From positions 62,001-126,000 of the forward strand of contig JAFTPU010000008.1 in the NCBI GenBank assembly GCA_017463105.1: a stretch of 64,000 nucleotides of DNA. Reading direction: 5' to 3'. This document shows positions 57,715 to 60,388 of this stretch, piece after piece. Source of the stretch: Clostridia bacterium (lineage in GTDB: Bacteria; Bacillota; Clostridia; Christensenellales; Borkfalkiaceae). Below the pieces are notes generated by a model, which saw only the letters and a program-made list of their open reading frames with translations, was not told where the DNA came from and ran no database searches. How positions within the stretch are numbered: position 1 is the stretch's first letter; each line of letters starts with the position of its first letter. Both the position numbers and the translations under genes were made by a program.

Positions 57715-58086
57715 ATGGACGTACAGAAACTCATTGAAGAAGTAAAAGCTATGACCGTTCTCGAATTGAACGAACTTGTAAAAGCACTTGAAGCAGAATT
57801 CGGCGTAAGCGCAGCGGCTCCCGTAGCGGCAGGCGCGGCGGCTGGTGCGGCGGAAGCGGCTCCCGCAGCGGAAGAAAAGACGGAATTCGACGTTGTTCTT
57901 AAGGACATCGGCGCGAATAAGATCGCGATCATCAAAGTTGTTCGCGAGGCTACCGGTCTCGGTCTTGCAGACGCGAAGAAAGCGGTTGAAGCTATGGGCG
58001 TGCTGAAAGAAGCTATGCCTAAGGCAGACGCTGAAGCGTTCGTTGCGAAACTTAAAGAAAACGGCGCTACCGCTGAACTTAAATAA
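57715..58086 (+). CDS. rplL: 50S ribosomal protein L7/L12
   Basis: The 123-residue stalk protein has the dimerisation helix [20 protein letters not shown], the Ala/Gly-rich hinge [19 protein letters not shown] and the GTPase-binding domain with [25 protein letters not shown] precedes ATG. A strong terminator follows instead of rpoB. Confidence 0.96.
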
Positions 58087-58104
58087 GTTTTACGACAAGA
58101 AAAG

Positions 58105-58130
58105 ATCCCGTTCTTGGAACGGGATTTTTT
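58105..58130 (+). terminator. rplL terminator
   Basis: ATCCCGTTC-ttg-GAACGGGAT followed by TTTTTTATTTTG is a perfect 9-bp intrinsic terminator. Confidence 0.92.
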
Positions 58131-58194
58131 ATTTTGTGGGGAAAAGCGGAAGATTTTTTCGAAAAAAATCCGTTTTACGGGGCTCGGTTGTCGA

Positions 58195-58219
58195 CACAAT
58201 TCAGGATAATTTGCTTATA
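58195..58219. repeat. Left 25-bp target-site repeat of the insertion sequence
   Basis: The 25 bases CACAATTCAGGATA...TTGCTTATA abut the left IS end and match 59327-59351 exactly. Such a length is unusual for IS3/IS481 elements. Confidence 0.85.
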
Positions 58220-59326
58220 TGTAGGTTTGTCAAACATATGAGACAAGATTTTAGAAAAAAATTTTAATTATGTAAAAGACCGTTGTGTAAGTAATCCAAG
58301 ATATATTGTTTTGGCGATTTCCAGTGCAAAGGACGCATAGGGAAAGAATTGTACCAACGAAGATGAACGGAAAGCTGTTTTTTGAAATCTTCAAAGGAAT
58401 AAAATTTATGAGTAGCATAAAAATATTCGTTATCCTTTCTGTGAGATCTTTCTACTTTACCATTATGTCTTGGAGTAAAAGGGCGAATAAGTTTATGTCT
58501 GATCCCCAACTCTTTGAGGTGCGCCTCAAAGAGTGAAACTTTTCCCTTTTTGCGCTCGTCAAAGGATTTAATAAACTCTAATCCGTTATCCGTTTGAATA
58601 CACTCTATCTTGAAAGGGAAAGCCTTAATCATAGCATTGACAAACTGAACGGAAGAATAGGTGCTCTGTTCCTTAAAAGCCATAACGAAACGAAAACGAG
58701 AGTATTCGTCAATAGCCGTATATTGGTAATAGCGTTCCTGCAAGCCGTCTGCATCGGGAACAATACAGGATTTGGGAACAATTTTCACGTCAACCTGAAC
58801 TCTTTGACCGGGATAAAGCATAGGCTCGTAGGGTTTTGGAATATATTTAGGATTCGGTGGTTTAACGGGTTGCAGGGATAGTTTTCTCAAAATGCGCCAA
58901 AGCGCAGGAATAGAACGTTTGTAGCCACGCTGCATAAGTTTAGTCCAAAAGAAAACCAAACCGTCGTTAGGATTACGTCTACGCATATCGGAGATAAGTT
59001 TAAGCTCTTCGGGTGTATGTTGATTGGGGTGGCTGTGTGGACGCCGAGAGTATTCTGCAAGGGATTGAGTAGTACCATTATACCGTTTACGCCAACGGTA
59101 GATGGTGGCTCGAGAGACACCAAAACGGCGAATGGTAGCAAAAATAGAATTTCTAAAAGAATAGAGTACAACTGATTGACGAAAGTTAGCTTTTTGTGAT
59201 ACAATGTTCATAGTAGCGAATAAATTTTCCTTTGTTAGTTTTTTGTGCTGATTAAACTTTAACATAAAGAAAATTTTTTCGCTACCTTTTTTATGCCTTT
59301 TGTCTCATATCTATTGTAATCCTACA
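58220..59326. mobile_element. Insertion sequence, IS481-like, 1,107 bp
   Basis: The element starts with TGTAGG and ends with CCTACA. The 27-base terminal inverted repeats match at 21 positions and share ATATGAGACAA near their inner end (58236-58246 and, inverted, 59300-59310). It carries one transposase gene on the minus strand and is flanked by a perfect 25-bp direct repeat. It lies between rplL and the exopolysaccharide operon. Confidence 0.9.
58264..59265 (-). CDS. DDE transposase (IS481-like)
   Basis: The 333-residue protein has an N-terminal HTH (FGVSRATIYRWRKRY) and a rve integrase core with the catalytic triad: Asp in GQRVQVDVKIVP, Asp in IECIQTDNGLEFIKSF and Glu in RHNGKVERSHRKDNEYF. 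A complete reading frame in an element with matching ends suggests recent activity. The family placement rests on the single ORF, size and motifs; IS1202-type elements are an alternative given the 25-bp target repeat. Confidence 0.85.
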   Translation of the reverse strand: MLKFNQHKKLTKENLFATMNIVSQKANFRQSVVLYSFRNSIFATIRRFGVSRATIYRWRKRYNGTTQSLAEYSRRPHSHPNQHTPEELKLISDMRRRNPNDGLVFFWTKLMQRGYKRSIPALWRILRKLSLQPVKPPNPKYIPKPYEPMLYPGQRVQVDVKIVPKSCIVPDADGLQERYYQYTAIDEYSRFRFVMAFKEQSTYSSVQFVNAMIKAFPFKIECIQTDNGLEFIKSFDERKKGKVSLFEAHLKELGIRHKLIRPFTPRHNGKVERSHRKDNEYFYATHKFYSFEDFKKQLSVHLRWYNSFPMRPLHWKSPKQYILDYLHNGLLHN

Positions 59327-59351
59327 CACAATTCAGGATAATTTGCTTATA
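59327..59351. repeat. Right 25-bp target-site repeat of the insertion sequence
   Basis: Perfect copy of 58195-58219 directly after CCTACA. The original target extends into TTATACCT, giving an imperfect inverted repeat AGGATAA-tttgc-TTATACCT. Confidence 0.85.
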
Positions 59352-59355
59352 CCTC

Positions 59356-59384
59356 TTGACAAACCGATACGAAAGTGATAAAAT
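59356..59384 (+). promoter_or_regulatory. Promoter of the exopolysaccharide operon
   Basis: TTGACA (59356-59361), 17 bp and TAAAAT (59379-59384). It starts 4 bases after the right target repeat, so the insertion left the promoter intact. Confidence 0.8.
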
Positions 59385-59390
59385 GTATAA

Positions 59391-59629
59391 AAGGACTCGT
59401 TGCAAAAATATATTAAGAGGAAATAAGCGGTCCGAAGGAATGGGGTGAACGTAGACCCGTTGTTCCGCGGTGAGTAAAATCACAGTATCCGTTGTTTAAT
59501 ATTTTGACGTACGTACAGGCGCGCGTATCGCCTTTCGTACGCGGTGCGCCGCCGGCGTAAGCTGACGACGGGCGAGCTCGTTTGCCGTAAAGCAGACAAA
59601 ATATTATTGGGAAGAAGTGAAAACGAAAG
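59391..59629 (+). other. Long structured 5' leader of the exopolysaccharide operon
   Basis: About 240 bases separate the promoter from the first gene. The segment CGTACGTACAGGCG...CGCCTTTCGTACG (59503-59541 region) folds into a stem with an AGGCG/CGCCT top, and CGCCGCCGGCG with CGACGGGCG follows. No known riboswitch was recognised; it has the size and G+C-rich character of a cis-regulatory RNA. No terminator was seen. Confidence 0.5.
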
Positions 59630-60388
59630 ATGAACGACGCAAAAAAAGAACAAAAACAGCAAGCGAAGCGCGATAAGAAAGAACGCAAAAGACGGCGGAA
59701 GTGTATCTTATCGGACGTGGAATTTAACTGTAATATAAAATATCCCGACGAATATTACGAAAATTTTATACGTAATTTTCAACCGAACAAGAAAAAGAGA
59801 GTGTTTTACCGTTTTTGCAAGCGTTCGTTCGATATGATCGTATCGCTTATCGCTTTGGCTGTACTTTCTCCGATCATGCTGATCATTGCGATCGCAATCA
59901 AGATTGATTCGAGGGGACCTATTTTTTTCAAGCAAAAGCGTATGGGGCGGCACGGCAAACCTTTTAATTGCTACAAATTCCGTTCGATGAAGATCGAGAC
60001 GCCGCACGATATGGCGACTTCGGTGTTGCAAAATCCGGAACAGTATTATACGCGGGTAGGGAAATTTTTAAGGCGATTCAGTTTAGACGAGTTGCCGCAG
60101 CTTTGGTGCTGTTTTTGGGGAACGATGTCGATCATCGGGCCGCGTCCGTTGGTGATGACGGAGGAAAACTGCAACGGAATGCGTTTGCGGCTTGGCGTTT
60201 ATCAGATGCGACCGGGGCTCTCGGGATACGCGCAGGTAAGCGGCAGAGACGACGTATACTATAAAAATAAAGCGATCATGGACGCGGAATACGTGCGAAA
60301 CGCTTCGTTGGGATTGGATATCAAACTGATATTCAGAACGGTGGCGGTCGTGGTGAATCGCGAAGGAAATGCGGCGGAGGAGAGCTGA
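59630..60388 (+). CDS. Polyprenyl-phosphate sugar phosphotransferase (monotopic PGT)
   Basis: The 252-residue protein moves a sugar-phosphate to undecaprenyl phosphate, the first step of a repeat unit. It has a basic N-terminus (DKKERKRRRK), a hydrophobic re-entrant segment MIVSLIALAVLSPIMLIIAI, and the catalytic pair region RSFDMIVSLI, PIFFKQKRMGRHGKPFNCYK, RRFSLDELPQLW and MSIIGPRPLV. It has no extra membrane helices and belongs to the WcaJ/PglC fold. It is the first gene of the operon. Confidence 0.9.
   Translation: MNDAKKEQKQQAKRDKKERKRRRKCILSDVEFNCNIKYPDEYYENFIRNFQPNKKKRVFYRFCKRSFDMIVSLIALAVLSPIMLIIAIAIKIDSRGPIFFKQKRMGRHGKPFNCYKFRSMKIETPHDMATSVLQNPEQYYTRVGKFLRRFSLDELPQLWCCFWGTMSIIGPRPLVMTEENCNGMRLRLGVYQMRPGLSGYAQVSGRDDVYYKNKAIMDAEYVRNASLGLDIKLIFRTVAVVVNREGNAAEES

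Follow-up and report, generated by a model that had tools for sequence, protein, structure and literature searches.

In the window, as the whole stretch of 64,000 nucleotides analysed here is called, an IS481-like insertion sequence of 1,107 bp with TGT...ACA ends occupies positions 58220-59326 on the minus strand. Its neighbour on one side is the gene for ribosomal protein L7/L12 (57715-58086, plus strand), which is followed by a terminator-like inverted repeat (58097-58133). On the other side lie a predicted promoter, a bacterial sugar transferase gene (PF02397; 59630-60388, plus strand), which is the first gene after that promoter, and an O-antigen-ligase-like gene. The element is bounded by its TGTAGG...CCTACA ends and by two 25-bp direct repeats, and comparison of these repeats placed the promoter-distal copy of the target duplication at 58195-58219 and the promoter-adjacent copy at 59327-59351. 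Both copies read CACAATTCAGGATAATTTGCTTATA and are identical. A repeat finder gives 26 nt because an A is present both at 59326, the last base of the IS, and at 58194, just before the left copy. The right copy ends at 59351 and is followed by CCTC and then by TTGACA (59356-59361, plus strand), the -35 box of the target promoter, which lies 4 bp outside the duplication, the same offset as in relatives of the element. The -10 box, TAAAAT (59379-59384, plus strand), was read from the sequence and is separated from it by a 17-bp spacer. Because the 25-bp upstream stretch was duplicated, the window promoter is native out to 29 bp above its -35 box. The first-pass annotation of this DNA had already given the 1,107-bp IS between identical 25-bp copies and the 4-bp distance from the right copy to the -35 box; both were confirmed, and the latter proved to be the real clue to a shared target.

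An Rfam scan of positions 58000-60000 returned three sub-threshold matches, none of them between the promoter and the gene. The rplJL flank was matched in 49 of 57 genomes of the genus, the matches mostly stopping near the rplL stop (query 587-606; to 646 in G022), short of the target. A search with the flank on the sugar transferase side revealed no intact pre-insertion site.

The left end of the element (LE, upstream of the transposase gene; 59300-59326, minus strand) begins with TGTAGGATTACAATAG and carries TACAAT 8 bp from its tip, and the right end (RE, downstream of the gene; 58220-58246, minus strand) finishes with TTTGACAAACCTACA and carries an outward TTGACA, again 8 bp from its tip. 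The two terminal inverted repeats match at 21 of 27 positions when counted by eye, the count that the first-pass annotation had given. Between them lies an open transposase gene (58264-59265, minus strand; 333 aa) with a DDE (rve) core, which was defined from the ORF, Pfam and an alignment. At E<=1e-3 the product matches the Pfam domains rve and rve_3 and HTH domains. Residues D159, D226 and E272 show no variation across a 44-row alignment and are taken as the putative catalytic triad. Among the NCBIfam models the top match by far is NF033577 (IS481), and NF033594 (ISNCY_2) is absent from the matches at E<=1e-3. The likeness to the IS481 family therefore comprises a single-ORF rve/DDE transposase, the TGT...ACA ends and the best NCBIfam model. 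The element differs from that family in its score (196.9 bits, below the 224-bit cut-off of the model), in its promoter targets and in its target site duplication (TSD), which at 25-27 bp in the window element and its relatives exceeds the reported range of prokaryotic IS481 elements, 2-15 bp (PMC10045372), so that the repeat is indeed longer than usual for IS481, as had been pointed out in the first-pass annotation.

The source genome, a 14-contig assembly with a listed completeness of 80%, yielded a single copy of the IS. A relative with 95% DNA identity (L009) is present in another genome of the genus. In a sheep-colon MAG (L008:3277-4383) a copy is identical to the window IS over 1,107 of 1,107 bp, with unrelated flanks and another promoter. 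The presence of an identical copy at an unrelated site indicates recent movement, by transfer or by transposition.

A scan of genome_contigs yielded 262 relatives, of which the best 80 were analysed. Most carry Clostridia or other Bacillota labels, and one of these best 80 of the 262, L082, is labelled Gastranaerophilales. Together with the window they make 81 copies; both ends were located by motif in 69, while 12 were without an end (L014, L015, L040, L044, L047, L055, L056, L064, L076, L078, L079 and L080). L004-L007, being partial or not delimited, were left out. At least 30 bp of flank was available on both sides of 59 of the 69 two-ended copies. A repeat was accepted if its length minus four times the number of mismatches was at least 12, a rule by which shorter repeats would be missed. 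Direct repeats of 25-27 bp with two mismatches or fewer were found directly outside the ends in 38 of the 69 copies, the window included; they measure 25 bp in 19 copies, 26 bp in 16 and 27 bp in three. The same picture was obtained from a search that demanded TGT/ACA alone, without the inner motifs. Since the 38 repeats differ in sequence, the duplication was made at insertion and did not pre-exist, and the view that the 25-bp repeat of the window is a true target duplication is upheld by these repeats of unrelated sequence at the same kind of termini. The question raised in the first-pass annotation, whether each other copy has 25-bp repeats, receives a divided answer: repeats of 25-27 bp occur in the 38 copies, and no clear repeat was seen in 21 of the 59 copies with both flanks, two of which (L048 and L083) have degenerate ones of 25-28 bp.

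When the targets of the 38 copies were aligned, no common motif was evident inside the duplication; a promoter was found just outside it, on one side. Promoters were scored as matches to TTGACA (6) plus matches to TATAAT (6) at a spacing of 15-19, the maximum being 12. At a distance of exactly 4 bp from the outer edge of the repeat, 31 of 37 copies score at least 9/12 (mean 10.05), and at any other of 29 offsets within 0-29 at most two of the 37 do; L019, with a flank under 110 bp, stands outside this count. The register also emerged when the repeats were ignored. Measured from the IS end, promoters of at least 10/12 were located at 29 bp in 19, at 30 bp in 17, at 31 bp in 3 and at 32 bp in 2 of 125 flanks of the 69 copies, against 11 matches at the other 46 positions combined. 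A distance of 29-31 bp from the IS end corresponds to the 25-27 bp repeat plus 4. Another 31 copies, in which no repeat was scored (both flanks present in 21, a flank shortened by a contig end in 10), had not been used to find this rule, and 21 of the 31 have a promoter of at least 9/12 at 29-31 bp.

With a looser cut of at least 8/12, an in-register promoter is present in 61 of the 69 copies and absent from eight (L009, L017, L022, L051, L058, L059, L066 and L083). Two of these exceptions, L017 and L051, show one flank only, and in L066 inspection by eye places a promoter at offset 6. L075 possesses a perfect TTGACA at offset 4 but a -10 match of only 2/6, and L035 and L062, in which the repeat is present, nevertheless score at least 8 on both sides. 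Two copies without repeats have an in-register promoter on both sides (L023 at 30 and 31 bp, L067 at 30 and 30 bp), a pattern such as would be expected of recombinants between two copies.

The 63 promoter flanks show a sigma-A profile, with TTGACA, a spacer of 17 bp in 57 of the 63, and an enriched TG before TATAAT; as these flanks were chosen by promoter score the strength of the hexamers is partly selected, that of the TG not. LE faces the promoter in 50 flanks and RE in 13; the p value, assuming independence, is 3e-6. AT content on the promoter side of these flanks peaks at about 6, about 16 and weakly at about 26 bp above the -35 box. The peaks could be UP-element/alpha-CTD contacts; they were given no weight because a control from ordinary promoters of these genomes is lacking.

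A further set of one-ended copies (L358-L361, L346 and L089) was inspected, with mixed results, none of the new copies having both ends and flanks of 80 bp on both sides. L358 has an 11/12 promoter at 29 bp on the RE side, and L361, on the LE side, a 9/12 promoter at 29 bp but also one of 9/12 at 35 bp. The 12/12 promoters of L359 and L360 are located 33 and 32 bp from the tip picked by pattern and fit only if the true tips lie 1-3 bp outward. In L346 and L089, where the RE side alone is visible, no promoter was found. L360 is the same as L164, and L362 was left out since it shares a contig with L043.

The two end hexamers are as regular as the target. In all 38 copies delimited without these motifs, the RE TTGACA lies exactly 8 bp from its tip, and the LE TACAAT, likewise present in every one of them, lies 8 bp (27 copies) or 9 bp (11 copies) from the LE tip; for this count a manual shift of 2 bp was applied to the LE tip of L050, and L048, with mis-set ends, was left out. 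As the copies are related, these figures represent conservation and not 38 independent events. The hexamers are kept in L160 and L163, relatives at 42-43% identity, despite different outer bases. Their orientation is such that abutted ends would form a TTGACA-N16/17-TACAAT promoter. Junction promoters of this layout belong to the copy-out/paste-in IS3, IS30, IS21 and IS256 families. We infer a circular form of the element with nearly abutted ends; a search for the IS-IS junction gave none in 50 genomes and none in viral_contigs. The ends would join with about 0-2 bp between them, as against a 25-bp target stagger, a difference that points to the target complex as the source of the long stagger. 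In other insertion sequences (L305, L307 and L308 of group G180; L314 and L315 of group G162) TATAAT is present at one tip and TTGACAA near the other, a possible junction promoter as well.

Among relatives with about 40-47% amino acid identity, nine copies were delimited, and in seven of the nine repeats or near repeats of 25-26 bp were accompanied by a -35 box at offset 4 (L160, TTGACA; L163, TTGTAT; L170, TTGACA; L175, TTGCTA; L181, TTGATT; L182, TTGACA; L183, TTGATT). L181-L183 share a genome, and the repeats were used to place their RE tip by hand. L179 scores 7 and is off the rule, and L180 fits on one reading of its ends only. Fourteen further loci at 36-45% identity were left out as not delimited, and L143 is unsettled. 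In L142, at about 51% identity, the repeat measures 14 bp and the -35 box is poor. This repeat is shorter than that of the 25-bp clade by approximately one helical turn; by analogy with IS481EU, for which this has been reported, one type of element may make more than one class of TSD.

Outside this clade, an IS481-like element of genome G101 (L290-L294) makes a TSD of 14-16 bp and has a promoter 18-20 bp from LE, that is, TSD plus 4, in five of five copies. Elements matching the ISNCY_2 model (NF033594) are taken as the 16-17 bp subgroup of the IS1202 family, on the basis of their size, their ends, their TSD and, for some matches, an IS1202-like label in PLSDB. Twenty such loci were fetched and 17, from seven genomes, were delimited (L227-L234, L236-L243 and L246); L235, L244 and L245 had no clean ends and were left out. 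In all 17 a repeat of 16-17 bp (two mismatches or fewer) abuts a -35 box on the LE side with a promoter score of at least 8/12, and in 14 of the 17 the abutting promoter reaches at least 9/12. Two groups with short TSDs served as small controls: neither G112 (6-bp repeats, two copies) nor G120 (short or unclear repeats, five copies) shows a fixed promoter distance. Repeats of 4 bp were seen by eye in the six copies of G159, which with G153, G077, G134, G180, G162, G101b and G150 is a control group outside the promoter scoring. Of the viral_contigs loci (34-41% identity, not delimited), L348 shows a 9/12 site at 19 bp of the visible RE flank and L347 none. In the transposase tree L290 and the short-TSD rows are long branches.

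The likeness to IS1202-type elements that the first-pass annotation had put forward has to be divided. As kinship it failed, since NF033577 was hit and NF033594 was not among the hits, and membership of the window element in the IS1202 family was rejected (333 aa versus 394-507 aa; NF033594 not matched at E<=1e-3). As a likeness in TSD length it stood, the IS1202-type elements also targeting promoters: common to both are a long TSD and insertion against sigma-A promoters. The IS1202 type differs in its larger transposase, which matches another model, and in its TSD, which measures 16-17 bp in the copies covered and lies 0 bp from the -35 box instead of 4, always on the LE side (17 of 17). The 25-bp TSD of the window compares with 16-17 or 27-28 bp in the long-TSD subgroup of IS1202 (PMC10132070).

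The best explanation of these data, and in our judgement a very likely one, is that the window element is a promoter-homing IS481-like insertion sequence. That promoters are targeted at all appears close to certain from the alignments. They show the element and its relatives inserted upstream of predicted sigma-70/A-type promoters in a fixed register, and of the two strand-transfer points they place one 4 bp above the -35 hexamer and the second another 25-27 bp upstream. To judge from the repeats, the 25-bp duplication restores the upstream stretch of the promoter to about 29-30 bp above the -35 box, so that native promoter sequence is kept. Both orientations occur, LE facing the predicted promoter in about four of five cases. 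Taken over the IS481-like and IS1202-type transposases with long duplications, promoter homing is, on the sequence evidence, a real and unusually regular target rule.

That RNA polymerase acts as the guide is probable. The transposase would dock on the promoter-bound RNA polymerase holoenzyme, through sigma region 4 or alpha-CTD, and would not read TTGACA alone. Docking is favoured because the -10 box (23-28 bp from the start of the -35 box) and the TG preceding it are conserved and because the two nicks bracket the stretch of the alpha C-terminal domains. These domains sit in the part of the promoter upstream of the -35 box, which both nicks bracket. The upstream DNA held in the RNA polymerase complex would set a long, helically phased stagger of 15 or about 25-26 bp, the proximal nick being fixed relative to the -35 box and the distal nick falling one or two helical turns further out. 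With the proximal nick at 4 bp, the distal nick is found at about 19 bp (G101) or 29-30 bp (the 25-bp clade), roughly one turn apart, and the IS1202-type elements are nicked 0 and 17 bp above the -35 box. Transposition would proceed by copy-out through a circle with nearly abutted ends, the junction promoter of which would drive the transposase gene.

A wider statement is offered tentatively, with confidence slightly short of even: the long TSDs of the IS481/IS1202 superfamily may be the footprint of integration into promoter-bound RNA polymerase. Sigma or RNA polymerase would fix the proximal nick (4 bp; 0 in IS1202) and the held upstream DNA would place the distal nick (15 or 25-26 bp; 17 in IS1202). 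On this view these elements would home to promoters as a general way of life, duplicating the upstream promoter region so that host expression is left untouched, and this would be one answer to how a DDE transposase comes to a 25-bp stagger. The long stagger might instead be built into the transposase, as a consequence of how far apart the active sites lie in a larger multimer, and be independent of the promoter complex. Kojima and Bao (2023) propose models of this kind, with inner and outer subunits or multimers, for the 4-, 15- and 25-bp TSDs of IS481EU (PMC10045372). We consider this rather doubtful for the window element, as among the bacterial groups resolved long staggers (15, 17 and 25-26 bp) accompany promoter targeting and the 6-bp stagger of the two-copy control does not, and as the geometry of the ends speaks for a junction of about 0-2 bp, not 25; neither point is more than suggestive.

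Direct reading of TTGACA as DNA by a transposase whose own RE carries TTGACA, promoters being hit only because they contain that hexamer, seems unlikely. It would suit the invariant RE TTGACA 8 bp from the tip (38 of 38), the IS1202-type elements, whose RE ends in TTGACA and whose duplication abuts a target TTGACA, and L075, the target of which has TTGACA without a -10 box. Such a reader would, however, need no -10 box, whereas the -10 hexamer at 17 bp and the TG are strongly conserved in the flanks (these were promoter-selected, which leaves the TG unaffected), and the target bases after TTGACA are unlike the sequence that follows TTGACA in RE.

Random insertion, with survivors only upstream of promoters since insertion there is harmless, is very improbable. 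Intergenic sites upstream of genes are indeed the harmless ones, and downstream of the promoter in 60 of the 63 flanks an ORF of at least 60 codons begins no more than 350 bp away, by a loose test without a control. Harmlessness would permit any distance, though, and the observed distance is fixed to the base, on which ground this explanation was rejected; the short-TSD groups G112 (two copies) and G120 (five copies) show no such fixed distance. The first-pass suggestion of a recombination-like (Xer/dif) target with an inverted repeat, for which AGGATAA-tttgc-TTATACCT in the window target and the distance of 5 bp at which some relatives in the IS1202 family (ISAjo2 type) lie from dif sites (PMC10132070) might speak, has a negligible probability and was discarded, since the 38 duplications have no common motif inside, the targets of the relatives share a promoter and no inverted repeat, the clade aligning on the promoter instead, and the inverted repeat of the window 25-mer is weak (RNA.fold energy 0.0, z +0.77 versus shuffles; mean over the 38 copies -0.69, lowest in L082, L066 and L065). 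The ISAjo2 group, a short-TSD part of the IS1202 family, likewise has TGT...ACA ends and inserts at a fixed distance, 5 bp, from a site that is bound by a protein, the XerC site; unlike the window element, it targets dif/pdif and makes a TSD of 5 bp (PMC10132070).

Homing to promoters as such is known from TnGBS, ISLre2 and part of ISKra4 (Mutator superfamily, p-MULT 3 and 4); TnGBS and its relatives insert 15-17 bp above the -35 box of sigma-A promoters, and an interaction with the RNA polymerase initiation complex was proposed by the TnGBS authors (PMC3942029). The window element likewise lies at a fixed distance upstream of sigma-A promoters and is not a member of that group, having an rve transposase instead of a Mutator transposase and an inverted repeat end 29-31 bp from the -35 box instead of 15-17 bp. 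The TSDs of TnGBS and ISLre2 are shorter than the 25-27 bp of the window clade. IS481EU, from parabasalid eukaryotes, has TSD classes of about 4-6, about 15 and about 25 bp, close to one helical turn apart (PMC10045372). It differs from the window element in being eukaryotic and in showing several TSD classes within one family, and the available excerpts of its description mention no promoter targeting (PMC10045372). Kojima and Bao (2023) state that they had no clue how the IS481EU duplications of about 15 and about 25 bp arise (PMC10045372), and in the long-TSD subgroup of IS1202 no conserved target was recognised by Harmer et al. (2023), who noted that there were few independent examples (PMC10132070). 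Among the matches listed from the open-licence PMC literature, as represented by titles and abstract openings, none reports that elements of IS481 or IS1202 target promoters.

For bacterial elements of both these puzzling kinds, those with long TSDs like IS481EU and the long-TSD IS1202 type, a sigma-A promoter together with a register is the target to which the present data point. Promoter homing, which we found described for Mutator-type elements, is thereby extended to other transposase families. The promoter and its upstream region are handed back intact, which suggests how such elements are tolerated by their hosts. As a marker of active promoters, such a transposase could also be put to use in mapping.
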